IMG/VR virus record: IMGVR_UViG_3300037882_001652
Span: 1-21,606 of that record
Length of the DNA stretch: 21,606 nucleotides
From: a virus
Reading direction: 5' to 3' (one strand)
Shown one piece after another: positions 1,791-17,345 of the stretch. Each line of letters opens with the position of its first letter. Within the stretch, counting starts at the first letter, position 1. A model generated the notes under the pieces. It was not told where the DNA came from and did not search any database. It saw nothing but the letters and a program-made list of their open reading frames with translations. The position numbers and the translations under genes were made by a program.

Positions 1791-1797
1791 GTTGGGC
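1791..1797 (+). other. Lone GTTGGGC core, left recombination boundary of cassette 1
   Basis: GTTGGGC followed by GG is identical to the R' core and next bases at attC-2, attC-6 and attC-14, yet no paired attC arms are found to its left. This is what an attI site, or a secondary integrase target in phage DNA, would look like beside the first cassette. Cassette 1 would begin at 1792. Confidence 0.5.
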
Positions 1798-1821
1798 GGC
1801 TCAGACAATGAACCGCAACAA

Positions 1822-2067
1822 TCATGGCATCATTTCACGCAGCTTCAGCCATGCGGATTGAACGACATGGTACGTCGCGTCATCTTCGACGCATCTTCCG
1901 TTTTGCTCGGCATCTTGGATCTCCTTCAGCGTTGCGCCGCCGTCACCAACAGCACCTTGCGGTATCTGAGTCAACAAATCCATCGCATCAATCAACAACG
2001 CCAAACGCCGCCCAACAAGCGGTTCAAGCTGAGCCGCAGTCTCTGGTTGTTCAATGTTTTCCGGCAT
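1822..2067 (-). CDS. Cassette 1 protein, unknown function
   Basis: 81 residues from an ATG at 2067 inside the loop of attC-1. The N-terminal part (MPENIEQPETAAQLEPLVG) is encoded by the loop and left arm, the same leader type seen in other cassettes. The rest is a helical acidic protein with two cysteine-free amphipathic stretches; no family is recognised. An upstream in-frame ATG at 2136 would overlap the methyltransferase gene and is less likely given the loop-start pattern of neighbours. The ribosome-binding site is weak (AAAGA-like). The gene ends 30 bases inside cassette 1. Confidence 0.65.
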   Translation of the reverse strand: MPENIEQPETAAQLEPLVGRRLALLIDAMDLLTQIPQGAVGDGGATLKEIQDAEQNGRCVEDDATYHVVQSAWLKLREMMP

Positions 2068-2116
2068 GTTGAAAGTCTTTCGTTTATCGGCGGCCAGCTT
2101 AACCTGTTCGTTCTGC
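2010..2116 (+). other. attC-1
   Basis: R'' GCCCAAC, left arm TTCAAGCTGAGCCGC, right arm GGCCAGCTTAACC, R' GTTCTGC (off-consensus). The extra A in the left arm gives plus polarity. It holds the start codon of the cassette 1 gene. Confidence 0.82.
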
Positions 2117-2119
2117 TGC

Positions 2120-2875
2120 TCAAGACACCGCTGCAATTATTCTCCGGCCAATCCATTCGGCCACCTGTGGCACTACGGCGTTTCCGAATCCACGCAATCG
2201 CTCCACGATTCCGGGAACCCCATACACCACGCTGCATGGTTCGGGTTCCATTGACCACCAATCTCCCATTGATCGCGTCTCGCCAGTGCCATCGAAACGC
2301 AGTCCTGTTGTCCCGGCTTCAGTTTCTGGCGTCCCGGATGCTCGCAAGCCACCACAGTTGGCGTAGGCAAAGCAAAACAGCCTCTCTCGTGAATGTGTCG
2401 CACCAAAGGCGCAAGCCGGTAACACCGCCCATTCCGCATCGTACCCCATGCTGGCCAAGTCTCTGAGAACTCGATCAATCCCCCGGTCAAGCAAAGCTGA
2501 GACGTTCTCCACGAGCACGAGCGATGGTCGAAGTTCGCGAATGATCCTCGCATACTCGCGCCAAAGACCAGACCTTTCACCTTCAATGCCAGCCTTGTTC
2601 CCGGCGTCGCTGATGTCTTGGCAGGGGAATCCTCCGCACAACAAATCGACTCGCTCGGTGTCTGGCTGGGGCCACGTTCGCACGTCATCCCAACGTCGCA
2701 CGTCTGGCCAATGTCGCTCAAGAACTCTTCGGCAATAGGGGTCAATTTCAACCTGCCATTTCAACTCGAAGCCCGCTCGTTCTAAACCCAAATCCATGCC
2801 GCCAATACCGGAAAACAAAGAGCCGCAGAACAAGCGGTTCAAGCGGACGGCGTCAAAGTCTGTCGTGTCTTCCAT
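2120..2875 (-). CDS. DNA (cytosine-5) methyltransferase
   Basis: 251 residues with the C5-methyltransferase motifs in order: motif I FSGIGGMDLGLERAGF (about 21-36, SAM binding), motif IV GGFPCQD with catalytic Cys85, motif VI ENV (123-125), motif VIII HSRERLF (161-167) and motif X GFGNAVVPQVA near the C-terminus. The target-recognition region is very short, as in many phage Dcm-type enzymes. The start is the ATG at 2875 inside attC-2, preceded by GGGAGAG, so the first ~17 residues come from the attC. The gene ends four bases from the attC-1 core. No restriction partner is nearby, so self-protection of phage DNA is the likeliest role. Sequence specificity is unknown. Confidence 0.95.
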   Translation of the reverse strand: MEDTTDFDAVRLNRLFCGSLFSGIGGMDLGLERAGFELKWQVEIDPYCRRVLERHWPDVRRWDDVRTWPQPDTERVDLLCGGFPCQDISDAGNKAGIEGERSGLWREYARIIRELRPSLVLVENVSALLDRGIDRVLRDLASMGYDAEWAVLPACAFGATHSRERLFCFAYANCGGLRASGTPETEAGTTGLRFDGTGETRSMGDWWSMEPEPCSVVYGVPGIVERLRGFGNAVVPQVAEWIGRRIIAAVS

Positions 2876-2912
2876 GCTCTCCCTCGCCGCCGCTTAACCT
2901 TGGACGTTGGGC
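2825..2912 (+). other. attC-2
   Basis: R'' GCAGAAC, left arm TTCAAGCGGACGGCG, right arm GCCGCCGCTTAACC, R' GTTGGGC. Near-textbook attC arms with extra A on the left. Holds the GGGAGAG site and ATG of the methyltransferase on the minus strand. Confidence 0.93.
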
Positions 2913-3004
2913 GGCAGAATCCAGAACCAAAACAACAGACTCCCGCCCGATGGTCTGTCGTGTCTTCAATGCTCAAACTGTCCGCTTGCAAAAGGAATCA
3001 TGTA

Positions 3005-3370
3005 GTGGACGCTCTGTTCAATGAAGACACGTTTCTCCTCACGTTTCCGATGTGGTTTCCGATTCATCCAACATCACTGTCGCAGGGCTTCATCGCGGTC
3101 AATGGTCCCGCTGGGGAACACGGCTCACCTCTGTTCACAGACAAAGACCTGCTGAATCGTTTCATTGCAAGCATTCCGCCTTTAAGTCATTATGAAGCCG
3201 GGGCAATAATCGGAATGCAGCCCCTTGCCGATCTCTTGAATCTACTCGAAGCAAAGGGTTTCACGCATGTCACCATCGACCATACACAGCGAGGAGCAAT
3301 GTTTTTCCCAATTCCTCGAATCCGCAAAGAACTATCAAAAACCGGAAAAACTCCGCCTGAAGCGTCCTAA
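3005..3370 (+). CDS. Cassette 3 protein (plus strand), unknown function
   Basis: 121 residues if it starts at the GTG at 3005, which follows AAAGGA at good distance; the frame is open further upstream to a TTG at 2900, and an ATG at 2969 without a binding site is the other choice. One of only four cassette genes in the normal orientation relative to its attC. The product has a hydrophobic first strand (FLLTFPMWFPI), a middle helix (FTDKDLLNRFIAS) and a repeated beta-alpha layout that loosely recalls SseB-like domains; I would not assign it. The attC to its right (attC-3) has no minus-strand start in its loop. Confidence 0.65.
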   Translation: MDALFNEDTFLLTFPMWFPIHPTSLSQGFIAVNGPAGEHGSPLFTDKDLLNRFIASIPPLSHYEAGAIIGMQPLADLLNLLEAKGFTHVTIDHTQRGAMFFPIPRIRKELSKTGKTPPEAS

Positions 3371-3419
3371 GCTCGTTTCCGTCACGTCCATCACATTCAT
3401 GGATCAAAACAACAAAAGC

Positions 3420-3509
3420 GCCCAACAAGCGGTTCAAGCGGACGGCGGGTTTGGCCGTTAATCGTCTTCCAAGTCGCTGGCCCGCCGCCGCTTAACCTGT
3501 TCGTTAGCC
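3420..3509 (+). other. attC-3
   Basis: R'' GCCCAAC, left arm TTCAAGCGGACGGCGGG, right arm CCCGCCGCCGCTTAACC, R' GTTAGCC. The clearest consensus site of the array. No ATG on the minus strand in its loop. Confidence 0.96.
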
Positions 3510-3525
3510 TCAAGAGATCACATCC

Positions 3526-3804
3526 ATGTTCGATGGCAACATTCCTAACATGCCGAACAACACGCTCGGAGATGATGACACTGGCCTAGAAGCCACATTG
3601 TTACGAGGCGCTGTCTTCGCCCACGAGGCTATCATCGAAGCCATGCTTGCTGCGCATCCATCGCCTAATTACGTGAAGGCGATATTGACGAGCCGATTCA
3701 GCCCCGAGAATTATCCGGAAAGCATTCGTGGCGTGTATGCGATGAACTACGAGAAGTATCTGTGGATTCTTGACAAACGATTGCAGGAACTTGGCGGCCA
3801 GTGA
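3526..3804 (+). CDS. Cassette 4 protein (plus strand), unknown function
   Basis: 92 residues, ATG at 3526 after AAGAGA, 17 bases inside the cassette as expected for a normally oriented cassette gene. Mostly helical, with a central segment (HEAIIEAMLAAHPSPNYVKAIL) resembling small phage or plasmid helical proteins; no family recognised. It converges with, and overlaps by 107 bases, a minus-strand frame that starts in attC-4. Confidence 0.7.
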   Translation: MFDGNIPNMPNNTLGDDDTGLEATLLRGAVFAHEAIIEAMLAAHPSPNYVKAILTSRFSPENYPESIRGVYAMNYEKYLWILDKRLQELGGQ

Positions 3805-4075
3805 AATAAAATCTCCACTCACGAATGAGTGGTTCCGGCAATGCCGAGATCAAAGACTCAACTCTATCTTTGTAATCATCATTCATATCAAAGCAGAATC
3901 CGCGTTTCTCGGAAACACCATGAAGGCGGGATGCCTCTTCAGGATAGTTGTTGCCTACACCAACGCATTCGCACCCGATGCAATTTCTGTCGCCAACATG
4001 AAGGGCTAACAAGTCGGTCAACGCGACCCCAACAATCGGCGGGTTTTCGGTTTTCAATGCGTCATTCGTGTTCAT
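3698..4075 (-). CDS. Cassette 4 protein (minus strand), unknown, overlaps convergent gene
   Basis: 125 residues from an ATG at 4075 in the attC-4 loop. The leader (MNTNDALKTENPPIVGVALT) is of the shared attC-encoded type. A cysteine-containing stretch (CIGCECVG) follows, then a charged helical segment. The last ~36 codons are antisense to the plus-strand gene ending at 3804, so the natural protein may be shorter or this tail may be read-through after loss of a stop. A hairpin lies across the overlap at 3815-3832. No family recognised. Confidence 0.55.
   Translation of the reverse strand: MNTNDALKTENPPIVGVALTDLLALHVGDRNCIGCECVGVGNNYPEEASRLHGVSEKRGFCFDMNDDYKDRVESLISALPEPLIREWRFYFTGRQVPAIVCQESTDTSRSSSHTRHECFPDNSRG
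3815..3832. terminator. Possible terminator hairpin between convergent genes
   Basis: CCACTC at 3815-3820 pairs with GAGTGG at 3827-3832. Read on the minus strand it is followed by AGATTTTATTT, a T-rich tail. It lies just after the plus-strand stop at 3804 but within the minus-strand open frame, so its role is uncertain. Confidence 0.35.
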
Positions 4076-4129
4076 TCGTCTTCACTTTCTCGCGCCGCTT
4101 GGTGGGTCGCGTTACCTTTGACGTTAGCT
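4004..4129 (+). other. attC-4
   Basis: R'' GGCTAAC, left arm GGTCAACGCGACCC, right arm GGGTCGCGTTACC, R' GTTAGCT. Longest site of the array (126 bases). The loop holds the minus-strand start at 4075, and the R' core supplies the stop of the cassette 5 gene. Confidence 0.92.
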
Positions 4130-4489
4130 GGACTGTTCCTCTTGGTCCCGACGAATTGCGTCTGCAAGCCACAGCAGCGCCTGCCGTGTTCGATAGTTTC
4201 TTCCGCCACCAGCGGACGATCTCACTCGAATCGACGGGAATGGCGTTGGTTGTCCGTCTGGAATTTCCTCCCAGTCCTGCATCGAAACATGAACGTCACC
4301 ATCACCAGCGATCAACACTTTCAGCCACGATCCGCCGCGACGGCCCTTGTCGTCGCATTGCACTTCATAGAACGTGTTCTGCTCAACACCTTCGGGCCAA
4401 TGCGGCTTCAGCGCGGCTGGCTCCTTTGTCCTCGTCGCCGCGCTAACAACCGCATTCACGGGAGCCGTCTCAGTGTTACATGTACTCAT
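4124..4489 (-). CDS. Cassette 5 protein, unknown function
   Basis: 121 residues from the ATG at 4489 in the attC-5 loop, preceded by a strong GGAGGAAAGC site. The leader is MSTCNTETAPVNAVV, of the shared attC type. The body has a compact beta-rich domain (TFYEVQCDDKGRRGGSWLKVLIAGDG) and a C-terminal helix ending in acidic residues. The TAA stop is formed by TTA of the GTTAGCT core of attC-4, so the gene fills the cassette exactly. An in-frame upstream start at 4561 lies in cassette 6 and is not credible. No family recognised. Confidence 0.78.
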   Translation of the reverse strand: MSTCNTETAPVNAVVSAATRTKEPAALKPHWPEGVEQNTFYEVQCDDKGRRGGSWLKVLIAGDGDVHVSMQDWEEIPDGQPTPFPSIRVRSSAGGGRNYRTRQALLWLADAIRRDQEEQSS

Positions 4490-4525
4490 TGCTTTCCTCC
4501 GGCCCCGTGATGCGGGTCGTTCGCC
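4441..4525 (+). other. attC-5
   Basis: R'' CGCTAAC, left arm ACCGCATTCACGGGAGCC, right arm GGCCCCGTGATGCGGGT, R' GTTCGCC. Arm sequence is unlike its neighbours but pairing is nearly complete, with two extra bases on the left arm, giving plus polarity. Confidence 0.88.
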
Positions 4526-4526
4526 T

Positions 4527-5057
4527 TCACAAATCAGAGCACCCCTGCGGCACTCCACCATAATTCACCAACTCGAATACCTCACGCTCAGCCTCAATCG
4601 ACGGCAACCGGCCCTCCGAAAACGGCATTGCGTAATTGCCAAACTTCCGTCGCCCAACCTCGGACAACTCAGACCACGACACAAATTCTTGCGGCACCTC
4701 AATCCATCGCGGATCAAGCCATGCAGACGGAATTCGCAACTGTCCATCGAACCACATCAGGATCGTCGTGCATCGCTGTTTGCCGTCGATGACAACAACC
4801 TGCAAATCGTCTGCCCACTCCGCGCCGAAACGGTCATTGATAATCACAGAAGCAACAGGAATCCCAAGCAGCAAGGAACGAATAAAGTTCACTCGTCTCG
4901 TCGTGCCCCAGACGTCTCCTCGCTGGTACGGCGGCGAGAGGTTCAAATATCTCTCACGTCGCCAGTGCGTCAGCACATCCAACGGGCGGTTGGTCTGCTG
5001 CAATTGAAGGCGAACAAGGCGGTCAACTGGAGCCGCCGTCAACGGTTTTGGTTTCAT
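4527..5057 (-). CDS. DUF262 domain protein (short, single domain)
   Basis: 176 residues from the ATG at 5057 in the attC-6 loop, with GAGAG eight bases upstream. The leader MKPKPLTAAPVDRLVR is attC-encoded. The DUF262 signature is clear: PPYQRGDVW (about 43-50), then a helix, IPVASVIIND, and VVVIDGKQRCTTIL with DGKQR at 91-95. DUF262 is a ParB/sulfiredoxin-fold NTP-binding domain found in GmrSD-type restriction enzymes and in many phage proteins. Here the DUF1524 nuclease half is absent, so it is not a full restriction enzyme; an anti-restriction decoy or a DNA-modification-dependent factor are both possible. The stop is two bases from the attC-5 core. Confidence 0.88.
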   Translation of the reverse strand: MKPKPLTAAPVDRLVRLQLQQTNRPLDVLTHWRRERYLNLSPPYQRGDVWGTTRRVNFIRSLLLGIPVASVIINDRFGAEWADDLQVVVIDGKQRCTTILMWFDGQLRIPSAWLDPRWIEVPQEFVSWSELSEVGRRKFGNYAMPFSEGRLPSIEAEREVFELVNYGGVPQGCSDL

Positions 5058-5099
5058 GGGAAGTCTCTCACGGCGGCCCAGTTACCTTGGACGTTGGGC
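5009..5099 (+). other. attC-6
   Basis: R'' GGCGAAC, left arm GGTCAACTGGAGCCGCCG, right arm CGGCGGCCCAGTTACC, R' GTTGGGC. Extra A on the left arm. The loop holds the start of the DUF262 gene. Confidence 0.94.
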
Positions 5100-5105
5100 G
5101 GACAA

Positions 5106-5139
5106 CATCTCGGAACTCAACTTAACTGAGACCGAGATG
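5106..5139. terminator. Hairpin at the end of cassette 7
   Basis: CATCTCGG at 5106-5113 pairs with CCGAGATG at 5132-5139, with an inner CTCA/TGAG pair. It lies between the cassette 7 gene stop (5152) and attC-6. The T tail on the minus strand is weak, so it may be an inefficient terminator or an mRNA-stabilising stem. Confidence 0.45.
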
Positions 5140-5151
5140 CTTCCGCGACGG

Positions 5152-5337
5152 TCAGGCAGCTTCTATCGCTGACTGGCCCCACCACGTTTCTGACTGGCAA
5201 CCGTTACCAGCCTTGTACCGCACGAAATACCTGATCTCGTCTTCGGTGTATTCGGCGCGCCCGATCACTGTCCCGGTTTCGCCGGACTCCACCAGTTTCA
5301 CAGCCTGTTTCAACTCAAACTTAAACTTCGGATTCAT
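5152..5337 (-). CDS. Cassette 7 small SH3/KOW-like protein
   Basis: 61 residues from the ATG at 5337, 19 bases outside attC-7, with a GGAG-like site upstream. The sequence FELKQAVKLVESGETGTVIG then YFVRYKAGNGCQ and a WWGQ turn reads as a small beta-barrel of SH3/KOW or Tudor-like type, common among tiny phage and cassette proteins. An alternative start at 5373 would begin in the attC arm, but has no binding site. No specific function. Confidence 0.7.
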   Translation of the reverse strand: MNPKFKFELKQAVKLVESGETGTVIGRAEYTEDEIRYFVRYKAGNGCQSETWWGQSAIEAA

Positions 5338-5355
5338 CTCGCACTCCAAAAATCC

Positions 5356-5444
5356 GCCCAACAAGAAAATCAACCGGAGCGGCGGGCGGCGACTGTTCCG
5401 GTGGGAAGCGGTTTGGCCGCCGCCCGGTTATTTTGGCGTTGGAT
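5356..5444 (+). other. attC-7
   Basis: R'' GCCCAAC, left arm TCAACCGGAGCGGCGGGC, right arm GCCGCCGCCCGGTTATT, R' GTTGGAT. Extra A on the left arm. No minus-strand start in the loop; the gene begins just to its left. Confidence 0.92.
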
Positions 5445-5446
5445 GG

Positions 5447-5819
5447 CTAATACCAATCGCCACCGACCGAACCCCGAAGCCGCTTCGGCGTCGGAATGTA
5501 AAACACCTCGTCATCGGTCTCGCCGTTGCCATAATCGAACGCCGAGAAGTTCGGCCAATGAACCGTCAGCCAAATCGTTCGATCGTTCGTGTGGCAACCG
5601 CTCTCTCCGGGGCGCGGCTGATGAATGTGAAAGTCACAACCGGCCTTCAGCATCACCCAGCACAATCCGAGCTTCTCGTGTGCGCCGGGCGAATCCCTGT
5701 TTCTCCATTTCGCGACAGGCGTGACTGCCGCCTCACAAATAGCGATCAAGTTCTCACGCGAATAATCGCCATCTAACAAGCCGCTCAACACGAGCGGCGG
5801 AATCACGTCGTTAGCCATC
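5447..5819 (-). CDS. Cassette 8 protein, unknown function
   Basis: 123 residues from the ATG at 5819 in the attC-8 loop, preceded by GAGAAAGG. The first ~17 residues (MANDVIPPLVLSGLLDG) read through the attC arm. The body has a helical start (NLIAICEAAVTPVAKW), a Cys/His-containing segment (LCWVMLKAGCDFHIHQ) and an aromatic-rich end. The stop TAG at 5447-5449 lies three bases inside the cassette. A longer frame begins at 5875 but crosses the cassette boundary. No family recognised. Confidence 0.75.
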
Positions 5820-5861
5820 GCATACCTTTCTCCCGCCGCCGGGTTAGCTTGGTCGTTATGC
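5771..5861 (+). other. attC-8
   Basis: R'' ATCTAAC, left arm CTCAACACGAGCGGCGG, right arm CCGCCGCCGGGTTAGC, R' GTTATGC. The loop holds a minus-strand start; R' supplies the stop of the cassette 9 gene. Confidence 0.92.
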
Positions 5862-6080
5862 GGGCACAGCTTCACGGTCTCGTTTCATCCGCGACAACTG
5901 TGCCTCGTAGTGATCCTTCTCGGCCTGCGTTGCCTGGCGAATCGAAATCGCTTCACCGTTCCTCAGTGCCACTTGCACGAATCCCCAATCGTACCGCTTG
6001 CCGTCTTCGGTGTAGATCGGCGACATCATTGTTCCCGATTCGCGGTAAAAGTGATACCCAATGTAAACCAGCTTGACCAT
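5856..6080 (-). CDS. Cassette 9 small protein, unknown function
   Basis: 74 residues from the ATG at 6080 after GGTGAT. A second choice is the ATG at 6103, made by the GCATAAC core of attC-9 itself, adding MRLLIGDV. The body has a beta strand start (KLVYIGYHFYRESG), an acidic turn, a short strand (FVQVALRNGE) and a C-terminal basic helix, suggesting a small nucleic-acid-binding fold; unassigned. The TAA stop is the TTA of the attC-8 core, so the frame ends exactly at the cassette edge. Confidence 0.75.
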   Translation of the reverse strand: MVKLVYIGYHFYRESGTMMSPIYTEDGKRYDWGFVQVALRNGEAISIRQATQAEKDHYEAQLSRMKRDREAVPA

Positions 6081-6100
6081 GACATCACCAATCAAAAGCC

Positions 6101-6189
6101 GCATAACAACAAATTCAACCGGAGAGGCGGCTACGTCGCGAGTTGAATCCGGGATGCACTGCGCCGCCCGGTTAATTTGAGCGTTCATC
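6101..6189 (+). other. attC-9
   Basis: R'' GCATAAC, left arm TTCAACCGGAGAGGCGGC, right arm GCGCCGCCCGGTTAATT, R' GTTCATC. Extra A on the left arm. R' supplies the TGA stop of the cassette 10 gene. Confidence 0.92.
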
Positions 6190-6415
6190 GGACGGACGTA
6201 ACGCGGTCCAACAAATAACATCCCGACACGTTCTCCAGCCAAATCACCGCACTGTGACCACTGAGAATTTGAGCGGTTGACTTTGTTCGCGTGCGGAAGG
6301 GTTCGTCTACGGCATCTAGCTTGACGAACACCTCGTCGCCGACGTTGACTTTCGCATTGAATCGGTCGCACTGCTTTTGCAGTTGCTTAACACTTGGACG
6401 CTTTGTTGCTGGCAT
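6185..6415 (-). CDS. Cassette 10 small basic protein, unknown function
   Basis: 76 residues, ATG at 6415 with GGAGT six bases upstream and 26 bases outside attC-10. A lysine-rich N-terminus (TKRPSVKQLQKQCDRF) is followed by a beta-rich part (VGDEVFVKLDAVDEP, SAVIWLENVSGCYLL), fitting a small SH3-like or KOW-like barrel with a basic tail. The TGA stop lies in the GTTCATC core of attC-9. Family unknown. Confidence 0.78.
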   Translation of the reverse strand: MPATKRPSVKQLQKQCDRFNAKVNVGDEVFVKLDAVDEPFRTRTKSTAQILSGHSAVIWLENVSGCYLLDRVTSVR

Positions 6416-6440
6416 GGTTTACTCCAATGGTTCGCCGCTC

Positions 6441-6530
6441 GATGAACAAACCCATGCAACGGAGCGGAGAATCAGCCGTTGCGTGGTGGTTAATTTTCTT
6501 GTCGCCGCCCGTTGATGGGTAGCGTTCTAC
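6441..6530 (+). other. attC-10
   Basis: R'' GATGAAC, left arm ACCCATGCAACGGAGCGG, right arm CCGCCCGTTGATGGGT, R' GTTCTAC. Paired arms with two extra left-arm bases, plus polarity. Confidence 0.82.
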
Positions 6531-6533
6531 TGC

Positions 6534-6752
6534 TCACGCCTTCGGGCAGAACAGGAACACCGATCGTTCCAACTGCTTTTCGCCCAGGACCAGAAACGAC
6601 CCGTCAACCAACTCAATCGACAAGCTCGCAACATCACCAAGCGAGGACCGAAACTTGCTTGCCCATTCTTCGAGCTGTTCCCGCGTGGCCCCCGGCCCGT
6701 AAATCTTCGCGCTGAACTCCAATCCATCAATCAGAATCTTCATCACGGACAT
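6534..6752 (-). CDS. Cassette 11 small protein, unknown function
   Basis: 72 residues from the ATG at 6752 with GGGAGGAGC upstream; a second ATG three codons on (6743) is also possible. Alpha/beta protein: a first strand (MKILIDGLEFSAKIYG), a helix (TREQLEEWASKFRSSL), and strands (LSIELVDGSFLVLG). No recognised family. The start lies 18 bases outside attC-11, and the stop four bases from the attC-10 core. Confidence 0.75.
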   Translation of the reverse strand: MSVMKILIDGLEFSAKIYGPGATREQLEEWASKFRSSLGDVASLSIELVDGSFLVLGEKQLERSVFLFCPKA

Positions 6753-6769
6753 CGCTCGCTCCTCCCGCA

Positions 6770-6853
6770 GTAGAACAACAAAATGCACCCGAGCGAACCA
6801 GCCGTCATCGCTCACCGGGCGTCGCTCGCGCCGGGTGATTTTGGTCGTTATGC
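6770..6853 (+). other. attC-11
   Basis: R'' GTAGAAC, left arm AAAATGCACCCGAGCGA, right arm CGCGCCGGGTGATTTT, R' GTTATGC. Extra G and A on the left arm, giving plus polarity. Confidence 0.83.
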
Positions 6854-6854
6854 C

Positions 6855-7457
6855 TCAAAACATCCGCATCTGAAAGTCTGGCTTTCTTCGTTCCGCCAGA
6901 CAAATCGTGTCGTTGTGCGCCGCGCCGTGGCAGCACAACAACACCTCGACAATCTCGAACCCATGCTTCAAGCCCATCCCGGCGCTGTTCCAACCGAAGC
7001 TCAACACCACGGCATCCTCGGTCAGCACTTCCATCAACGCAGCCTTCACGCGGGCGTACAACGCCGCGTTCTGTGTTTCCTTCATCCCGACCGTCAGGCC
7101 AGCTTCCTTGTAGCACTCGCTGATCTGTCGCGGGGAATACGGCGGGTCCATGATCGCCACGTCGCACTTCACGCCCCGCGTGGCCAGCATCCGAAGGAAG
7201 TCTTCCGCATCCATGTGATGCTCGGCTTCCGTCTTAGGATTCAGGTCATTGGTATGGGTTGCCCATCGCTTGTTCCTCGCAAACGGGTCACATGACTCGG
7301 TTGCGTCATCCAAGTATCTCCGCACGAACTCACCGATCGGCGGCACGCTGAACGTGTCTGCCGAAGGCATCGCCCACACCCGCGAAAAAGAAGGCATAAC
7401 AAGCCGTTCGACCGGACGGCGAGCAACTTGCGGTTCAATCGTTTCTGTGCCTTCCAT
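6855..7457 (-). CDS. Adenine-type DNA methyltransferase (DPPY motif)
   Basis: 200 residues, ATG at 7457 in the attC-12 loop behind GAAGGAACGAC. The attC-encoded leader is MEGTETIEPQVARRPVERLV. Body: PPIGEFVRRYL, a CDPFARN segment at about 56-62 followed by THTNDLNP that resembles a degenerate SAM-binding motif I, then VAIMDPPYSPRQ with the catalytic DPPY at 104-107, and a C-terminal half with strands typical of the Rossmann fold (AVVLSFGWNS). This order fits small phage N6-adenine (or N4-cytosine) methyltransferases. No restriction partner is present; likely modifies phage DNA. Motif I is weak, so activity should not be assumed. Confidence 0.87.
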   Translation of the reverse strand: MEGTETIEPQVARRPVERLVMPSFSRVWAMPSADTFSVPPIGEFVRRYLDDATESCDPFARNKRWATHTNDLNPKTEAEHHMDAEDFLRMLATRGVKCDVAIMDPPYSPRQISECYKEAGLTVGMKETQNAALYARVKAALMEVLTEDAVVLSFGWNSAGMGLKHGFEIVEVLLCCHGAAHNDTICLAERRKPDFQMRMF

Positions 7458-7499
7458 GTCGTTCCTTCATCGCGCCGCAGCTTACCTTGGACGTTCGAC
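7394..7499 (+). other. attC-12
   Basis: R'' GCATAAC, left arm TTCGACCGGACGGCG, right arm CGCGCCGCAGCTTACC, R' GTTCGAC. The loop contains AAGGA and ATG of the DPPY methyltransferase on the minus strand. Confidence 0.9.
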
Positions 7500-7500
7500 C

Positions 7501-7977
7501 TCAAACCATATTTTCGTAGATCGCTTGAATTCGGCCTTTCCACTCCGGCCGGTAATCCAATTCGCCGCATGACTCAGTCAGCAACGGGTTGCCGCCAGCG
7601 TTCATCATACGGTGCAGGCAATAGGCATCATGCTCCGTCTTGATGCCGTGTTCCTCAATGTCCTCAAGCTGGCGTTCGACGCCGAAGTCCGTGAAGGTGA
7701 AGTCCAGTGGTGTTCCGCATTTCTCACAATGTGGCGGCGAATCCTCTTCACCCGTCCATCCGCCGTCGATTCTCTTCCGAAAGAGCTTCTTCGCACACTG
7801 AAGGCAATAGGTGCCTTCGTGCGTGCCGGACTCGTCCCAATACGGGTTGCTCAGAGTTCGCTCGCACCTGTCTGCCGCTTCGCGCGTCGCCTCAACCAGC
7901 AATCGAGCAAAAGAGGTCGAACAAGCGGTTCCAGCCGACGCCCGACTCACTGGCGGTTCGATGGTTTTCGTGTTCAT
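7501..7977 (-). CDS. Cassette 13 zinc-ribbon protein
   Basis: 158 residues from the ATG at 7977 in the attC-13 loop, with AAGGA upstream. The leader MNTKTIEPPV matches other leaders, but the frame then crosses the arm in a different phase (SRASAGTACSTS). A zinc ribbon is formed by YCLQC (about 57-61) and CEKC (about 84-87), separated by a basic/acidic linker; the C-terminal half is acidic and helical. Zinc ribbons of this type occur in small phage DNA- or RNA-binding proteins; no specific function. The stop lies one base beyond the attC-12 core. Confidence 0.8.
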   Translation of the reverse strand: MNTKTIEPPVSRASAGTACSTSFARLLVEATREAADRCERTLSNPYWDESGTHEGTYCLQCAKKLFRKRIDGGWTGEEDSPPHCEKCGTPLDFTFTDFGVERQLEDIEEHGIKTEHDAYCLHRMMNAGGNPLLTESCGELDYRPEWKGRIQAIYENMV

Positions 7978-8025
7978 TGAAGTCTGTCCTTTATCGCGGG
8001 CGACGGCTGAACCTGATCGTTAGGA
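7916..8025 (+). other. attC-13
   Basis: R'' GTCGAAC, left arm TTCCAGCCGACGCCCG, right arm CGGGCGACGGCTGAACC, R' GTTAGGA. The arms pair with an A:A mismatch rather than a bulge. The loop holds AAGGA and ATG of the zinc-ribbon gene. Confidence 0.88.
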
Positions 8026-8038
8026 ATTGGAAAACACC

Positions 8039-8419
8039 ATGAAGCGTGATATGGATTTGATTCGCAAGATCGCTTTCGCCATCGAAGACTCCTCGTCAGC
8101 CATCGACTCGAATTCGCTTGCCATTGACGGCTTCACCCAAGAACAAATCGCCTACCACTGCGAGCTTATGAACGAATCGGGGCTGCTTCATGCCATCGAC
8201 GTTTCTCACTTGCAGTCCAAGTTTGCCGAATTTCAAATCAATCGGCTGACCGCCAAAGGTCACGATTTCACAGACGCCGCGAGAAGCGACACAATCTGGA
8301 AAAAAGCGACAACAAAAATTGCGTCCACGGTTGGCGGTGTCACGATCGATGTCCTGATTCAATACCTCAAAACTCAGGCGTTAGCCTCGCTTGGACTTTC
8401 AACGCCAAGCGATGGCTGA
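8039..8419 (+). CDS. DUF2513 family protein (plus strand)
   Basis: 126 residues, ATG at 8039; the AGGA at its ribosome site comes from the GTTAGGA core of attC-13. The N-terminus MKRDMDLIRKIAFAIED is typical of DUF2513, a family of small winged-helix-like proteins common in phages and mobile elements. Then GFTQEQIAYHCELMNESGLL and LTAKGHDFTDAARSDTIW, the usual helix-turn-helix and wing region, and a C-terminal segment (VGGVTIDVLIQYLK). It is one of four cassette genes in the normal orientation. Its end overlaps a convergent minus-strand gene by 46 bases. Confidence 0.9.
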   Translation: MKRDMDLIRKIAFAIEDSSSAIDSNSLAIDGFTQEQIAYHCELMNESGLLHAIDVSHLQSKFAEFQINRLTAKGHDFTDAARSDTIWKKATTKIASTVGGVTIDVLIQYLKTQALASLGLSTPSDG

Positions 8420-8574
8420 CGTGGAATAATCAATGTGATCGTCAGCTCGTCCGCGCTAAGTGGTTCTTTTCGTTGGAGCGTAAACGATTTGATCCCTTCA
8501 ACAACACTCATTGACTCCGCATCAACCACCTCAGCGGTATCGGGTCGCCCATCGTACCTCAGTGTTAATCGCAT
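8374..8574 (-). CDS. Cassette 14 small protein (minus strand), unknown
   Basis: 66 residues from the ATG at 8574, with AGGA eight bases upstream and nine bases outside attC-14. Beta-rich (LTLRYDGRPDTAEVV, then ELTITLIIPRQP). The C-terminal ~14 codons are antisense to the end of the DUF2513 gene. It is the second case, with cassette 4, of a cassette carrying two convergent genes. No family recognised. Confidence 0.65.
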   Translation of the reverse strand: MRLTLRYDGRPDTAEVVDAESMSVVEGIKSFTLQRKEPLSADELTITLIIPRQPSLGVESPSEANA

Positions 8575-8582
8575 AAGACAAT

Positions 8583-8672
8583 TCCTAACAAGTCGGTCAA
8601 CGTGAGCCGCCGATCACGTCGCTTGAAGTGGTGGCCATTTTGGCGGCGGCCACGTTACCTTGGTCGTTGGGC
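8583..8672 (+). other. attC-14
   Basis: R'' TCCTAAC, left arm GGTCAACGTGAGCCGCCG, right arm GGCGGCGGCCACGTTACC, R' GTTGGGC. Extra A on the left arm. The 10 bases after R' match those after attC-2. Confidence 0.94.
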
Positions 8673-8770
8673 GGCAGAATCTCGCTGCGTCTGTCTGTTC
8701 CGGAAGGCAATTAGCATCCATAGCCAACTGCGATCCCAAGAACAAACCACAAACACAACTCCACCATCAG

Positions 8771-9133
8771 ATGAATGAATTTACCATTCGCCTCTCCGTC
8801 TTCATTGTCGGCACGTTCCTTGGTCACTGGTTTGCCGTCCATCGCGAACGCCGGAAGGAATTCAATGAGATTGCCGACCGGATTTTCAGGCAACTGGACA
8901 ACCAGTTGCGCTGCCCTAGCACAAGCAATGTCATCACAGAGGACGACATCCGCATGCTGCGGAGAATGATGTCTCAGTGGCAGCGGCGTCGCTTCGACAA
9001 AGCCCTGAACGAATACGACCAAGACACAGGCGACACCAATCAGCGATATCACGACTTTCACATGGCCTACATTGATGGCGAGAAAGTCAAGAAAGCGGCC
9101 ACAAAGCTCTTGAAGTGGTTTCCTCATCGGTAG
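8771..9133 (+). CDS. Cassette 15 membrane-anchored protein (plus strand)
   Basis: 120 residues from the ATG at 8771; no good ribosome site is seen, and the frame is open further upstream to 8660. Residues about 6-22 (IRLSVFIVGTFLGHWFA) form one membrane segment, followed by a basic, helical cytoplasmic domain (HRERRKEFNEIADRIF, then RMLRRMMSQWQRRRF). Single-pass proteins of this kind are frequent in cassettes and phage accessory regions. A 138-codon minus-strand frame over the same bases is judged a shadow because it lacks a start site and has less protein-like composition. Confidence 0.68.
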   Translation: MNEFTIRLSVFIVGTFLGHWFAVHRERRKEFNEIADRIFRQLDNQLRCPSTSNVITEDDIRMLRRMMSQWQRRRFDKALNEYDQDTGDTNQRYHDFHMAYIDGEKVKKAATKLLKWFPHR

Positions 9134-9222
9134 TCCTCCGCAACCATCACACGATCAAGACAAAAGACACGCCCAACAATCGCGTCAACCGGAGACCGCC
9201 TCCGGCCGTTCTCTGTCTTCAG
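9124..9222 (-). pseudogene. Start-lost relic of a minus-strand attC-initiated gene
   Basis: In attC-15 the loop reads CTGAAGACAGAGAACG where attC-16 reads ATGAAGACAGAGAACG; the ATG has become CTG. The frame then runs through the arm (RRRSPVDAIVG, the usual leader pattern) for 33 codons and stops inside the end of the plus-strand cassette 15 gene. It looks like an abandoned start left when the body of the cassette was replaced by a plus-strand gene. Confidence 0.5.
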
Positions 9223-9260
9223 CGTCAACCGGGCTGTCCCGGTTACGCTGGACGTTATGC
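9171..9260 (+). other. attC-15
   Basis: R'' GCCCAAC, left arm GTCAACCGGAGACCG, right arm TGTCCCGGTTACGC, R' GTTATGC. Extra A on the left arm. The loop is a close copy of the attC-16 loop but with CTG in place of the ATG. Confidence 0.9.
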
Positions 9261-9262
9261 GG

Positions 9263-9451
9263 CTACGATGTTCGACAGCCGCACTTGATACATTTCCCAT
9301 TGTCCGTCGGTCCGGCCATCGCCAATGCCTGAACCTTACCGCACGATTCACATTTCACGTCCGCGTTCAACCAATGGTGGCCCTTGCGTATTTCGTCCGC
9401 CGTGAATCCTGCCTGTTCTTCCGGCACGTTGTGCTTCGGGTACAGTTTCAT
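9263..9451 (-). CDS. Cassette 16 gene C: zinc-ribbon protein
   Basis: 62 residues, ATG at 9451 with GGAGG upstream, third gene of a three-gene cassette. Two CxxC pairs (CESC at about 34-37 and CIKC at about 54-57) form a small zinc ribbon; the first half is helical (TADEIRKGHHWLN). Such small zinc proteins are frequent in phage early regions. The TAG stop lies within eight bases of the attC-15 core. Confidence 0.82.
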   Translation of the reverse strand: MKLYPKHNVPEEQAGFTADEIRKGHHWLNADVKCESCGKVQALAMAGPTDNGKCIKCGCRTS

Positions 9452-9462
9452 CAGCCACCTCC

Positions 9463-9537
9463 TTATTTCCAGAACAACCACGACACAATCGCCGCAATCA
9501 CAAGCCCGCTCAACATTCCAGCCGTGAACAGCAACAT
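9463..9537 (-). CDS. Cassette 16 gene B: 24-residue membrane peptide
   Basis: ATG at 9537 with GGAGTG at ideal spacing, and TAA at 9463-9465; the next gene's GGAGG begins right after the stop. The product is almost entirely one hydrophobic helix (MLLFTAGMLSGLVIAAIVSW, then LFWK). The binding site overlaps the stop of gene A, so the three genes form a tightly packed operon. Too short for family search by eye; a small membrane regulator or toxin-like peptide are both possible. Confidence 0.6.
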   Translation of the reverse strand: MLLFTAGMLSGLVIAAIVSWLFWK

Positions 9538-9541
9538 GGCA

Positions 9542-9781
9542 TCACTCCCGCGAAATTCCTGCCCACGCATCAAACGGCTTCCACGAAGCGACAAACGCCG
9601 AAATTGTCGCATCCAAAAAGAATCGACCATCAATCACCGCCAGCGCCTGATTCGCCAGCAACAAAAGGCACATCACCGGGAATCCAACACACCAGAAAGC
9701 CATCCACCACACGCACAATCGGAAGAAACCAAAACGCCGCATAACAAGCGGAGCCGTCGTTGGCGCGTTCTCTGTCTTCAT
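9542..9781 (-). CDS. Cassette 16 gene A: membrane protein
   Basis: 79 residues, ATG at 9781 in the attC-16 loop behind GGAGAGGTGG. The leader MKTENAPTTAPLV is followed by a basic-aromatic segment (MRRFGFFRLCVWWMAFW) leading into a hydrophobic stretch (CVGFPVMCLLLLANQALAV); a C-terminal amphipathic segment may also touch the membrane. Unknown function. First gene of the three-gene cassette operon. Confidence 0.75.
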   Translation of the reverse strand: MKTENAPTTAPLVMRRFGFFRLCVWWMAFWCVGFPVMCLLLLANQALAVIDGRFFLDATISAFVASWKPFDAWAGISRE

Positions 9782-9819
9782 GGTCCACCTCTCCGGCCCG
9801 CTTACCCTTTGCGTTAGCC
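9739..9819 (+). other. attC-16 (shortened left arm)
   Basis: R'' GCATAAC is followed at once by AAGCGGAGCCG, without the usual 5-6 base spacer, while the right side is complete (CGGCCCGCTTACC, then CTTTGC, then R' GTTAGCC). The site looks like one with a small internal deletion and may recombine poorly. Confidence 0.75.
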
Positions 9820-10035
9820 ATACCGCGAACATCGAGTCGCGTACACGACGACGCCACTTTCAATCGGCTTTTCGCGACTGTCCGCGTCGAGCATTCCGCG
9901 TATATCGTGCTGAACACAGACGACTATCCAGTGTCCGTTGTTAGCATCGAGTCGCTCGCCGACTCGCGGCGAAATAACGGACTGATACGTTCCAACTGGC
10001 ATGTCTTTTTCGTCAATCACAAAAACATCGAACAT
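9814..10035 (-). CDS. Cassette 17 small protein, unknown function
   Basis: 73 residues, ATG at 10035 immediately beside the R'' of attC-17; ribosome site not evident, and a TTG three codons upstream is possible. Beta-rich (MFDVFVIDEKDMPVG, then GHWIVVCVQHDIRG), ending in a short basic tail. The TAA stop is the TTA of the attC-16 core. No family recognised. Confidence 0.7.
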   Translation of the reverse strand: MFDVFVIDEKDMPVGTYQSVISPRVGERLDANNGHWIVVCVQHDIRGMLDADSREKPIESGVVVYATRCSRYG

Positions 10036-10126
10036 GGCTAACAAGCCGTTCCAGCACGAGGCGGCGATGGCGCGGGTTACGGTAGTTCAGTCGGTCGCGC
10101 CGCCCGGCTGAACTTGGTCGTTATGC
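10036..10126 (+). other. attC-17
   Basis: R'' GGCTAAC, left arm TTCCAGCACGAGGCGGCG, right arm CGCCGCCCGGCTGAAC, R' GTTATGC. Extra A on the left arm. R' supplies the stop of the cassette 18 gene. Confidence 0.92.
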
Positions 10127-10648
10127 CGGAAGAAACACGGTTCCACCGGCAGCCTTGACCTTCGCAATGAACTCATCAAGCGTCGTTCCAGCATGAATCA
10201 CGACCGGCGGACTGATCCCGCTTGTTCGCAACCACGCAATCGCACCTGCGTTGATTTGTTCGACACTACAATTGCTGTTGGTGCATCCGCTGCTTGGCGT
10301 CTCAAATGGCCCGTCCCATGCAATCATCGTGACTTCAAACGCTGGCGTCCCATCCTCGTTCCAGTCCTTCACGCAACTCTGGCATCGACACACTTCACCG
10401 GCTTCCATCCGCGTTTGCGTTCCCGGCTTCCATCCGCGTTTCGCTTTCGGGTCATTGCGGTGTGCTGGTTCATTGTGCCAACACGGCCCGTATGGCCTTC
10501 CGGCGTTGTGCTCATAGGGCGCGTCATTCCAGTCGTCGCCCCACTGCTCACCCAACGGCTTGGTTGTAAAAAACGCCCAGCATCCATCTACGTAACAAAG
10601 AACCGGCATACCAAGTCGTTCCACCGGGTGAAATTTGTGCGCTATCAT
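10121..10648 (-). CDS. Phage-type protein with WGDDWNDAPYEHNAG motif
   Basis: 175 residues from the ATG at 10648, or 162 from the ATG at 10610. The segment FFTTKPLGEQWGDDWNDAPY plus EHNAG is a hallmark of a widespread family of small phage proteins of unknown function, and is the strongest sign that cassettes carry phage genes. A cysteine-rich middle (VCRCQSCVKD, then CTNSNC) may bind metal. The C-terminal part forms a small alpha/beta unit. The N-terminus HPVERLG comes from a half attC (10607-10640). The TAA stop is the TTA of the attC-17 core. Confidence 0.85.
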   Translation of the reverse strand: MIAHKFHPVERLGMPVLCYVDGCWAFFTTKPLGEQWGDDWNDAPYEHNAGRPYGPCWHNEPAHRNDPKAKRGWKPGTQTRMEAGEVCRCQSCVKDWNEDGTPAFEVTMIAWDGPFETPSSGCTNSNCSVEQINAGAIAWLRTSGISPPVVIHAGTTLDEFIAKVKAAGGTVFLPA

Positions 10649-10799
10649 TCAATGAATATCGGCCAAGCTTCTTGCATCCGCATTCACACTCATATTCCCC
10701 GCGTTTGGCCACATCAATTGAACTCCGTACTCGTCTCGTCACGATCACGTTGCGGATATGCACCCATTTGTGTCGATGTGTACTCGCAACCGAAGTCAT
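10548..10799 (-). pseudogene. Probably truncated small zinc protein overlapping next gene
   Basis: Start ATG at 10799 with a distant GGGAG. The first ~52 residues read as a real small protein (STHRHKWVHIRNVIVTRRV, then YECECGCKKLGRYSLN), with a possible zinc site. Past about 10645 it runs out of frame through the half attC and the next gene for 100 bases. The gene seems to have lost its natural end, together with half an attC, by a deletion that joined two cassettes. Confidence 0.5.
10607..10640 (+). other. Half attC inside cassette 18
   Basis: GCATACCAAGTCGTTCCACC, then GGGTG, matches the R'' plus left arm of other sites (GCATAAC..TTC.ACCGG), but no complementary right arm or GTTRRRY follows. 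It marks a fused cassette. Confidence 0.55.
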
Positions 10800-10825
10800 T
10801 GGCCATCCGCTCCCCGAATCCGCAC

Positions 10826-10911
10826 GGCGAACAAAACACCGGTGCGGAGCCGATCAAGGTACACTCGATCATCGCAGGCTTATCGCGGCCCGCACAGTTC
10901 TGTCGTTAGCT
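10826..10911 (+). other. attC-18
   Basis: R'' GGCGAAC, left arm CCGGTGCGGAGCCG, right arm CGGCCCGCACAGTT, R' GTTAGCT. Extra A on the left arm. R' supplies the stop of the cassette 19 gene. Confidence 0.82.
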
Positions 10912-11172
10912 GTCACCCCACGGAAGCAACTCATCACTCGCCTTCGGCAACGGCCAGAACCGAGAATCCCAACCAGCCAGCCTCACCGCTGAATCGAACG
11001 ACCAATCAAAACACCACGTTAGCCGGTGAGATAATTGACGAATCGTCAACGGGACGATTGCCCCGACGTACAGCAAAACCAGCAACGGAATCGCAACAAA
11101 CCGGAAGACAAAACAAGGCCAGCCAACAAGCTGCTCAACAGGAGCCGAATCAACGGCGCTCGTGTTTTTCAT
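10906..11172 (-). CDS. Cassette 19 membrane protein
   Basis: 88 residues, ATG at 11172 in the attC-19 loop behind GGAGAGAAGTC. The leader is MKNTSAVDSAPVEQLVG. Then one hydrophobic segment (about 19-43: FVFRFVAIPLLVLLYVGAIV) and a Trp-rich amphipathic C-terminal part. Probably a small inner-membrane protein; function unknown. TAA is formed by the attC-18 core. Confidence 0.78.
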   Translation of the reverse strand: MKNTSAVDSAPVEQLVGWPCFVFRFVAIPLLVLLYVGAIVPLTIRQLSHRLTWCFDWSFDSAVRLAGWDSRFWPLPKASDELLPWGDS

Positions 11173-11207
11173 GACTTCTCTCCGGCCCGGTTATTTTGGC
11201 GTTCACT
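11121..11207 (+). other. attC-19
   Basis: R'' AGCCAAC, left arm CTCAACAGGAGCCG, right arm CCGGCCCGGTTATT, R' GTTCACT. Extra A on the left arm. The loop holds GGAGAG and ATG of the cassette 19 gene. Confidence 0.88.
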
Positions 11208-11210
11208 GGG

Positions 11211-11354
11211 CTACATCGACCATTGACGAATTTCCATTGGCCCAATTCTGAGCCACCATTTGTATTGCAGATTTTTCGCGGCGTGAATATTTCGACCGAA
11301 GCACCACGGCCACGCCTGCCATTGCCAATACCACGCAACTTCAATTCCTTTCAT
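11211..11354 (-). CDS. Cassette 20 Trp-rich small protein
   Basis: 47 residues, ATG at 11354 with AGGAA five bases upstream, and TAG at 11211-11213. Very rich in tryptophan and aromatic residues (MKGIEVAWYWQWQAWPWCFG), with basic residues after it. Similar tiny aromatic proteins occur in phages but I recognise no family. It begins 26 bases outside attC-20. Confidence 0.6.
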   Translation of the reverse strand: MKGIEVAWYWQWQAWPWCFGRNIHAAKNLQYKWWLRIGPMEIRQWSM

Positions 11355-11379
11355 GCCGTTTCCTACTATGGTACGCCGC

Positions 11380-11454
11380 AGCGAACAAAAAGATGCAGCC
11401 GAGTTTGCGTCGTCTCTCAACTGTCTCCCGGCATGGTTATATTTGCCGTTATAT
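11380..11454 (+). other. attC-20 (degenerate, last of the array)
   Basis: R'' AGCGAAC, left arm ATGCAGCCGAG, right arm CCCGGCATGGTTATA, R' GTTATAT. Short (75 bases) and less symmetric than the others, but extra left-arm bases keep plus polarity. Confidence 0.6.
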
Positions 11455-12043: not shown

Positions 12044-12319
12044 TCAGTCCGAGACAAAAGCCAGCAACAACATCAACTGAGATTCCGTTTTCGGCTGAAA
12101 TCGACGCGGCAGCACTTCACCATCCACATGCCAATTCCATTGGGAAAGATTACTCGTCGCTGGTGGTCCGCTCACCGTGACCGGACCACGCTGCATCCAG
12201 CCACAATGGGTCACGCGAAAACCAAGCCCTAGCAAAAACCGCTCAGACAAACGCCGCCCAAAACTGACAGGCACCATCGTCGGCTCCTTTTCTCGTTGCA
12301 ATTGAGCCGAAGCGATCAT
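12044..12319 (-). CDS. Unknown small phage protein
   Basis: 91 residues from the ATG at 12319, which overlaps the stop of the upstream gene (ATGA), so translation is coupled. A second start at 12277 lacks this coupling. The protein is rich in Arg and Trp (GFRVTHCGWMQRGPV, then LSQWNWHVDGEVLPRR) and ends in a hydrophobic strand. No family recognised. First phage gene to the right of the array. Confidence 0.7.
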   Translation of the reverse strand: MIASAQLQREKEPTMVPVSFGRRLSERFLLGLGFRVTHCGWMQRGPVTVSGPPATSNLSQWNWHVDGEVLPRRFQPKTESQLMLLLAFVSD

Positions 12320-12687
12320 CTCGCAACAACACCATCAAGAGCCTTTAATACATCCGCTAGCACTGACGGACCAGTGATCCCGTCGTACCTCAGTTGCATC
12401 GTCGCCATCTTCAGCAGCTTTCTCGCTGCAACAACATCATTCCTCAGTCGCAACGCATCAGACACACTCTGGATCAATGAATCCGGCTTGCCGTCCCACG
12501 TCACCCGTTGGCCTCGTAGCCACTCTGCTAAGCTCTCGGTTCTCTGAGTTGAATCGCCGCTGAACAGACTGCTGATTGCGGGATCATGGAACAGGTCGTC
12601 TGTGATAGCGGCTGACGCCTTCGCTCCGACGCGGAGGCCCAAGGCAAACAACTCAAGTGGACAAGGCTTCACGTCGCTCCTCCTCAT
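12316..12687 (-). CDS. Unknown helical phage protein
   Basis: 123 residues from the ATG at 12687, which lies within the last codons of the upstream gene; AGGG is just upstream. Largely helical (SLAEWLRGQRVTW, then DALRLRNDVVAARKLLKMA), with short turns. No motif recognised. The overlap with both neighbours places it in a compact early operon with SSB. Confidence 0.72.
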   Translation of the reverse strand: MRRSDVKPCPLELFALGLRVGAKASAAITDDLFHDPAISSLFSGDSTQRTESLAEWLRGQRVTWDGKPDSLIQSVSDALRLRNDVVAARKLLKMATMQLRYDGITGPSVLADVLKALDGVVAR

Positions 12688-12877
12688 CGCCCTGTGGAAC
12701 AAAATGAATCCCGGCCGCCAGTGTCGTATACGCAAACGGGCACTGCCACCTCGCACCGCACGGGCAACTCACGCTGTTCGTGCGGCGCAGTATCTTGCAT
12801 TGACGCATCTGAGCCGCTCGCCTTGATGGTGACTTGGATTGCTCGACGATCATTGGTCCGCTACCGCCGTCCCACAT
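12653..12877 (-). CDS. Small protein with possible zinc site
   Basis: 74 residues from the ATG at 12877, overlapping the upstream stop (TGATG). A basic N-terminal half (SKSPSRRAAQMRQCKILRR) precedes CPCGARWQC, a possible metal-binding knuckle, and an acidic-basic tail (QGDEEERREA). The frame is open further upstream to 13249, but that extension is antisense to nothing and overlaps two real genes, so the short form is preferred. Confidence 0.65.
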   Translation of the reverse strand: MWDGGSGPMIVEQSKSPSRRAAQMRQCKILRRTNSVSCPCGARWQCPFAYTTLAAGIHFVPQGDEEERREALST

Positions 12878-13095: not shown

Positions 13096-13109
13096 GATCC
13101 CAAACCTCC

Positions 13110-13550: not shown

Positions 13551-13562
13551 TCTCTTCCTCTC

Positions 13563-17327: not shown

Positions 17328-17345
17328 TCGTTTTCCTCAGTATCT

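Follow-up and report, generated by a model that had tools for sequence, protein, structure and literature searches.

Integrons are bacterial gene-capture platforms whose cassettes carry an attC site after the gene: in bacterial cassettes, those of class 1 integrons and others, the gene shares its strand with attC and ends immediately upstream of the site. The stretch of DNA analyzed here, hereafter the window, is the entire IMG/VR virus record IMGVR_UViG_3300037882_001652 with a length of 21,606 bases. It features an integron-type cassette array without an integrase at 2.0–11.5 kb (about 1791–11454), which consists of 20 attC sites, all on the + strand.

Integrase-less integron cassette arrays (CALINs) with orphan DNA methyltransferases were described in phage genomes by Qi et al. 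2023 (PMC9892861), and protection from restriction was suggested for them. In the part of that paper available here, a CALIN requires a minimum of two attC sites, arrays running in the same direction are taken as typical, and IntI1 recombined five of six phage attC sites in an assay. The window resembles these arrays in having attC clusters without intI and orphan methyltransferase cassettes. However, the same part of the paper contains no account of genes inverted against attC, whereas the window features 20 sites, inverted genes, and start codons inside attC. Nothing further on phage cassettes in inverted or reverse orientation came out of a search of the open-access literature. Since phage CALINs with methyltransferases had been published earlier, the proposal of the initial annotation that the cassettes carry anti-restriction and phage accessory genes is, as an idea about cargo alone, already known; the new element is an inverted cassette type that many phages share and that hardly occurs in the bacterial arrays tested.

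The sedentary chromosomal integrons of Planctomycetia have the same attC length and sequence type as the window, and IntI is present in some of these genomes. They differ by their canonical genes, with attC after the gene, and by longer cassette proteins. The class 1 cassette aadA1 of plasmid R100 shares the R''/L''/L'/R' plan and the extra-helical bases but has its gene on the attC strand, its attC 3' of the gene, and a class 1 integrase alongside. Phage orphan methyltransferases of phrog_363 and phrog_11619 form the sequence families into which the window enzymes fall. No flanking attC was found for the C5 enzyme at 24 viral relatives or, for the DPPY enzyme, at the phage relative checked, whereas the window methyltransferases are mobile cassette cargo with an N terminus coded by attC. 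Compared with these systems, the region is probably a CALIN inside a phage operon, with mostly inverted genes and a rotating cargo of phage accessory genes, moved by an integrase in trans.

attC sites and cassette ends

The attC sites of the window feature R''/R' boxes, an L''/L' stem, and extra-helical bases, as in integron cassettes. By eye, 19 sites were called, and a covariance model was built from 17 of these. The model recovered its 17 training sites and one extra site at 4441–4525. With 18 sites by model and no neighboring intI, the array is a CALIN in the sense of at least two attC sites; intI and attI, which make up a complete integron beside the array, were not found in the window, and the record may be a fragment. 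The array opens with an R' core, GTTGGGC, at 1791–1797 (+), which is complementary to the R'' of site 1 and takes the position equivalent to attI, although no attI was recognized there. On the + strand follow attC 1 (2010–2116, 74.8 bits), attC 2 (2825–2912, 66.7 bits), attC 3 (3420–3509, 78 bits), attC 4 (4004–4129, 56.3 bits), attC 5 (4441–4525, 37.9 bits, E 1.2e-7, by covariance model only), attC 6 (5009–5099, 75.1 bits), attC 7 (5356–5444, 68.1 bits), attC 8 (5771–5861, 65 bits), attC 9 (6101–6189, 59.3 bits), attC 10 (6441–6530, 58.8 bits), attC 11 (6770–6853, 50.4 bits), attC 12 (7394–7499, 57.9 bits), attC 13 (7916–8025, 60.9 bits), attC 14 (8583–8672, 72.4 bits), attC 15 (9171–9260, 69.8 bits), attC 16 (9739–9819, 45.5 bits), attC 17 (10036–10126, 64.6 bits), and attC 19 (11121–11207, 67.6 bits). 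Two sites were missed by the model: the degenerate attC 18 (10606–10911), which has kept R'' GCATACC and R' GTTAGCT at a distance of 306 nt, and the weak attC 20 (11380–11454), identified by eye and by its cassette-end match (3/4). A blastn comparison of attC 3 with plasmids gave no match.

The two ends of each cassette agree with each other. Over the 20 sites, the R' of a cassette matches its own R'' in 76 of 80 variable letters, with a mean of 36 after shuffling, and none of 100,000 shuffles was as good. Adding attC 5 removes the sole bad cassette-end match: its R' GTTCGCC pairs with the GGCGAAC of the next site, and both neighboring cassettes then nearly agree. The agreement is confined to the cassette; between neighboring sites it amounts to 62/68, compared with 33/72 within a site. 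In the other phage arrays, cassette ends agree in 253 of 324 letters, compared with 149 after shuffling. This pattern is that of site-specific cassette exchange and points to past exchange of the integrase type. The term cassettes in the initial annotation was thus right far beyond chance. The range it gave, 2120–7457, holds most of the genes that it listed and falls short of the array, which extends over about 1791–11454.

The window-built model also matches the attC of the aadA1 cassette on plasmid R100 (E 2.6e-7), and it detects the CALINs published for phages TJE1 and MW202573. In sites from the window, from viral and bacterial arrays, and from aadA1 alike, the extra-helical C and A are located in the same 5' arm; hence, the orientation of attC is fixed and the strand call is sound.

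Gene orientation and translation starts

Of the called cassette genes of the window, 17 of 19 run opposite to attC and in the direction of the phage operon, which is the reverse of a canonical cassette and had been overlooked in the initial annotation. For comparison, bacterial genomes were searched with an attC pattern and viral contigs with a looser pattern, followed by scoring with the covariance model; with the first pattern, the window was the only match in viral contigs. In about 30 viral records, attC sites were found, with 14 at most in a single record, and the reversal occurs in about 25 viral contigs besides the window. A terminase is present in 12 of 26 viral contigs tested. After removal of duplicate proteins, and with TJE1 left out, 197 genes of the viral contigs and the window together run against attC and 13 run with it. 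The bacterial loci have three opposite and 49 on the same strand, and five further planctomycete stretches, obtained as whole-genome matches of the model, have 0 and 26, which gives a bacterial total of 75 genes on the same strand and three opposite. Fisher's exact test for this difference yields 2.6e-51 at the gene level and 4e-14 at the contig level; the latter takes every contig as independent and counts the mixed contig L131 (four opposite, three same) as inverted, and close relatives may be present among the contigs (L079 and L101, for example, have the same attC score). A test free of gene calling, based on the longest open reading frame (ORF) per cassette, finds the opposite orientation in 13/17 units of the window, 65/79 of the viral contigs, and 2/32 of the bacterial arrays. 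For the published phage MW202573, the deposited annotation likewise shows inversion. The median cassette protein comprises 88 aa in phages compared with 158 aa in the integrons of Planctomycetia.

Because the genes run against attC, the site is positioned at the 5' end of the gene. At 10 of 18 window sites checked, an antisense ATG together with a ribosome-site-like motif opens an ORF of 79–251 codons. Counting window and viral arrays, the start codon of 31 genes is located 30 bases or more inside attC, so that the attC arm is translated; in window proteins of this kind, about 14–21 first residues are coded by attC. A tag of the form [VL][DE][RQC][LIV]V occurs near the N terminus of 12 of these 31 genes compared with 0 of 179 other cassette genes. 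The leader is common to unrelated proteins of unrelated phages, some of which share their first residues (MSEAQRNECPLDRLVIPHG, MNEAQRNECQVDCLVKP, MSEANEVSPVERVVMP). An attC leader that already exists may thus be the element to which gene bodies are joined.

Several arrays bear further features. Canonical cassettes are found at 2969–3370, 8039–8419, and 8771–9133 inside the otherwise inverted array of the window and are perhaps host-derived. Large phage arrays of many short cassettes are present in L135/L143/L144 (G022, 58 kb), G004, and G017; each of G004, G017, and G022 has two attC clusters in opposite directions, with genes mostly inverted in both. L047 (JAKQEE010000379.1, 4269 b), binned in a Pseudomonadota metagenome-assembled genome, looks like phage with all called genes on one strand: it carries a Dam-like methyltransferase (3271–4158(-)) and an inverted cassette that starts inside the attC at 513–612. 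The terminase matches in G005, G009, G011, and G026 have one in-frame stop each (TAG in three, TAA in one), for which stop recoding or interrupted genes are possible.

Cassette cargo

The two orphan methyltransferases named in the initial annotation are real and have profile matches. The C5 cytosine DNA methyltransferase (2120–2875(-), 251 aa) is an inverted cassette with its start codon in the attC 2 loop. It matches PF00145 (1.4e-46) and, across nearly its full length, phrog_363 (6.1e-79), and its translation features the motifs GGFPCQDIS, VENV, RERLF, and GFGNAV, readable by eye, which include the PCQ, ENV, and RxR elements of the family. The DPPY DNA methyltransferase (6855–7457(-), 200 aa) starts in the attC 12 loop with the attC-encoded N terminus PVERLV. 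It carries the DPPY motif and matches phrog_11619, "DNA methyltransferase" (2.5e-37), with a weak Pfam match in addition. The stand-alone DUF262 domain was likewise found as described, at 4527–5057(-): this short protein of 176 aa starts in the attC 6 loop with the attC-encoded N terminus APVDRLV and matches PF03235 GmrSD_N (3.5e-14) in residues 40–111 only. It is not a GmrSD type IV restriction enzyme, as it features only the N-terminal domain and no D/HNH nuclease domain. It resembles the defense proteins NsnA (5.5e-15) and PD-T4-2_A (6e-9), which makes it possibly defensive rather than counter-defensive, and weakly a type II restriction endonuclease model; it could equally be a defense or a superinfection-exclusion protein.

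The WGDDW (WGDDWNDAPYEHNAG) protein, which had been placed among the same cassettes, exists and has 175 aa but is located outside that range, at 10121–10648(-). Relatives occur in 10 IMG/VR contigs, EQWGDDWND is invariant in nine aligned sequences, and a relative with 48% identity adjoins the array of the phage contig G024. Its predicted structure has a pLDDT (predicted local distance difference test) of 69 and a pTM (predicted template modeling score) of 0.70. The fold has no match in the PDB, and its best viral match (E 1.2e-3) is an uncharacterized protein of an uncultured member of Caudovirales.

The remaining cassettes carry mostly small proteins. The 133-aa ORF (2969–3370(+)) is canonical, on the strand of attC 3, and belongs to no family; an assignment as SseB-like is unsupported by Pfam. 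A 92-aa ORF (3526–3804(+)) is overlapped by an opposite ORF (3698–4075) that starts in attC 4, and either may be real. The 121-aa protein (4124–4489(-)), with its start codon in the attC 5 loop, is 62% identical to a hypothetical protein encoded by Xanthomonas phage X1; the 61-aa protein (5152–5337(-)) is 57% identical to Bcep176 gp32; the 123-aa protein (5447–5818(-)), starting in the attC 8 loop, is 46% identical to Gordonia phage proteins; and the 76-aa protein (6185–6415(-)) is 44–48% identical to proteins of Pseudomonas F116-like phages. Between and beside these are a 74-aa ORF (5856–6080(-)) and a 72-aa ORF (6534–6752(-)). Past the DPPY enzyme follow a 158-aa protein with zinc-ribbon-like CxxC pairs (7501–7977(-), start codon in the attC 13 loop); the DUF2513 protein in canonical orientation (8039–8419(+), PF10711, 1.1e-26); a 120-aa ORF, probably canonical (8771–9133(+)), in place of which the gene finder preferred the opposite ORF 8711–9127; a 62-aa protein with CxxC pairs (9263–9451(-)); a 79-aa membrane-like ORF (9542–9781(-), start codon in the attC 16 loop); and a 73-aa ORF (9814–10035(-)). 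To the right of the WGDDW protein, the array closes with an 88-aa membrane-like ORF (10906–11172(-)), which starts in the attC 19 loop with the attC-encoded N terminus PVEQLV, and a 47-aa ORF (11211–11354(-)).

That this cargo consists of phage accessory genes, as had been proposed, is supported by seven cargo proteins with relatives among sequenced phages and by the relatives of the WGDDW protein in viral contigs. Relatives are present in 1754 phage records for the C5 methyltransferase, 20 for the DPPY methyltransferase, and 254 for the DUF262 protein. At the gene regions of four relatives (X1, Eyre, Bcep176, and P2559S), the model detects no attC.

As to anti-restriction, the two orphan methyltransferases most likely methylate the phage DNA against host restriction; within the cargo, such a role is plausible and the best guess for these enzymes only. 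The proposal that the small cassettes encode anti-defense proteins gained no evidence, as the family libraries returned no such match for the small proteins and the structural comparison with anti-defense folds, run on the WGDDW protein only, gave no match in the PDB. The methyltransferases had also been said to lack a restriction partner. This holds insofar as no convincing restriction endonuclease family was recognized in the scanned proteins; it is qualified by the weak endonuclease resemblance of the DUF262 protein and by a weak VRR-NUC-like nuclease match (2.1e-4) at 1283–1618, directly left of the array.

Among 150 cassette proteins of other phage contigs, Pfam recognizes only 15 families, with DNA methylases as the commonest recognizable group (four N6_N4, three MT-A70, and two C5); none is present among 52 bacterial cassette proteins. 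Related MT-A70-like methylases, 28–46% identical, are inverted cassettes in three phage contigs: L130 (3188–3739), L141 (3758–4300 and 13877–14497), and L145 (8327–8941). They hint at one family circulating as cassettes.

Integrase, host, and rival explanations

Integron integrases exist in related settings. In the phage contig G016 (L146, IMGVR_UViG_3300037247_001285), the region 3160–4554 features a full-length IntI, with 418 bits compared with a cut-off of 265, directly downstream of an inverted cassette. With its large terminase (7.7e-222) and repressor families, G016 looks like a temperate phage and is a candidate for a self-contained viral integron; it also features a Dam-like protein at 5670–6536. 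In bacterial genomes, 13–14 of 19 attC-pattern matches are labeled Planctomycetota, which suggests a planctomycete as the host of the window phage. IntI exceeds the cut-off in two of nine planctomycete genomes that carry the window attC type. Given these integrases, cassette exchange in trans by enzymes of the host or of phages is possible.

In the mechanism proposed here, an integron integrase acting in trans, from the planctomycete host or from a phage such as G016, would insert and shuffle phage-type cassettes. The cassettes would arrive carrying their own translation start and would be read by the phage transcript coming from the right, with the attC at the 5' end of the gene often supplying a motif that resembles a ribosome site as well as the start codon and the first residues. 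The phage accessory genes that form the cargo would be a rotating set. The more general form of this proposal is favored by a narrow margin over its negation: that phages keep a back-to-front cassette class of their own, in which ribosome site, start codon, and a tag at the N terminus all come from attC, allowing expression of a captured gene body in the phage operon, and that this class circulates among phages of many hosts by means of host or phage-borne integrases, as in G016, carrying orphan methyltransferases and other accessory genes. As a consequence of the inversion, the recombining bottom strand of attC is the non-template strand, and transcription of the phage operon could therefore expose it for recombination. 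If distinct inverted phage cassettes with their own translation start exist, phages own a modular gene-exchange system, which would help to explain the movement of short accessory genes, methyltransferases included, between unrelated phages; the antisense start inside attC and the [VL][DE]RLV tag would then be a signature for finding candidate counter-defense genes in viral genomes.

Several observations weigh against the proposed explanation. No integron integrase (TIGR02249) and no attI were found in the window, and its positions 1690–1800 show no similarity to the intI-proximal DNA of G016 or G039, so that exchange in this lineage is deduced from the cassette ends only. IntI exceeds the curated cut-off in just one of 30 phage contigs. 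No terminase is found in the window, for which reason the record is probably a fragment of a virus genome. TJE1 is canonical by its annotation, as are two to four window cassettes. A strong enrichment of methyltransferases in cassettes over other phage genes is not convincing, since a motif count gives eight in the 150 cassette proteins compared with about four in as many non-cassette genes of the same contigs. Nor is the ribosome site within the attC loop unusually open: RNA folding yields 0.47 compared with 0.45 for shuffled sequences, and 11 of 24 sites are above their shuffles.

The rival explanations fare differently against this evidence. Ordinary intergenic hairpins or terminators of phages, which are palindromic, lie between small genes, and occur in many phages, would look similar at first sight; barring an artifact of recent duplication in the cassette-end test, they are practically ruled out as a source of the attC-like elements, since the variable ends agree across the cassette and not within the hairpin, and since the elements carry attC-specific extra-helical bases and their model cross-finds a class 1 attC. 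There is little chance that the inversion is an artifact, whether from miscalled strands, from gene finding in GC-rich DNA, or from viral contig sampling. Such an artifact could be fostered by a viral sample that derives from a single, loosely degenerate pattern together with a single covariance model, itself trained on window sites, with a canonical TJE1 and some contigs that are possibly close relatives. Yet bacterial arrays, the whole-genome matches not chosen by pattern among them, yield the opposite result with the same model and gene finder; aadA1 of R100 comes out canonical; MW202573 is inverted in the annotation deposited for it; and the terminases identify real phages.

An array carried off from a chromosomal integron of the host, with bacterial cargo incidental to the phage, is improbable, albeit less so than an artifact. 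The attC type, that of Planctomycetia in 13–14 of 19 genome matches, and the canonical cassettes of the window (the 133-aa ORF, the DUF2513 protein, and the 120-aa ORF) are in line with such an origin. Against it stand the canonical orientation of host-type arrays (75 of 78 genes) compared with inverted phage arrays, the phage relatives of the cargo, and the lack of a match between any window cassette protein and any planctomycete locus examined, all of the matches listed being viral. A different purpose of the cargo deserves more weight, though it too is the less likely option at about one chance in four: competition with other phages or plasmids by superinfection exclusion or defense, with methyltransferases that are regulatory or parts of incomplete modification systems. 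The resemblance of the DUF262 protein to NsnA and PD-T4-2_A and the unclear enrichment of methyltransferases fit this purpose, whereas no nuclease partner, toxin, or full defense system was recognized, and the DUF262 protein ends after its N-terminal domain. Moreover, protection against restriction is a known role of orphan methyltransferases in phages (Murphy et al. 2013, as cited in PMC9892861).

The phage backbone adjoins the array on the right (12316–21594(-)) and runs leftward into it. It encodes SSB, a MazG-like protein (weak match), a DEAD/ResIII helicase, a ParB-like protein, a YqaJ exonuclease, and proteins without assignment; among IMG/VR records, no relative of the helicase was close enough. 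Between the SSB gene and the MazG-like gene, the backbone bears a perfect 26-bp inverted repeat (13724–13749 and 13853–13878), the arms of which are 103 bp apart.

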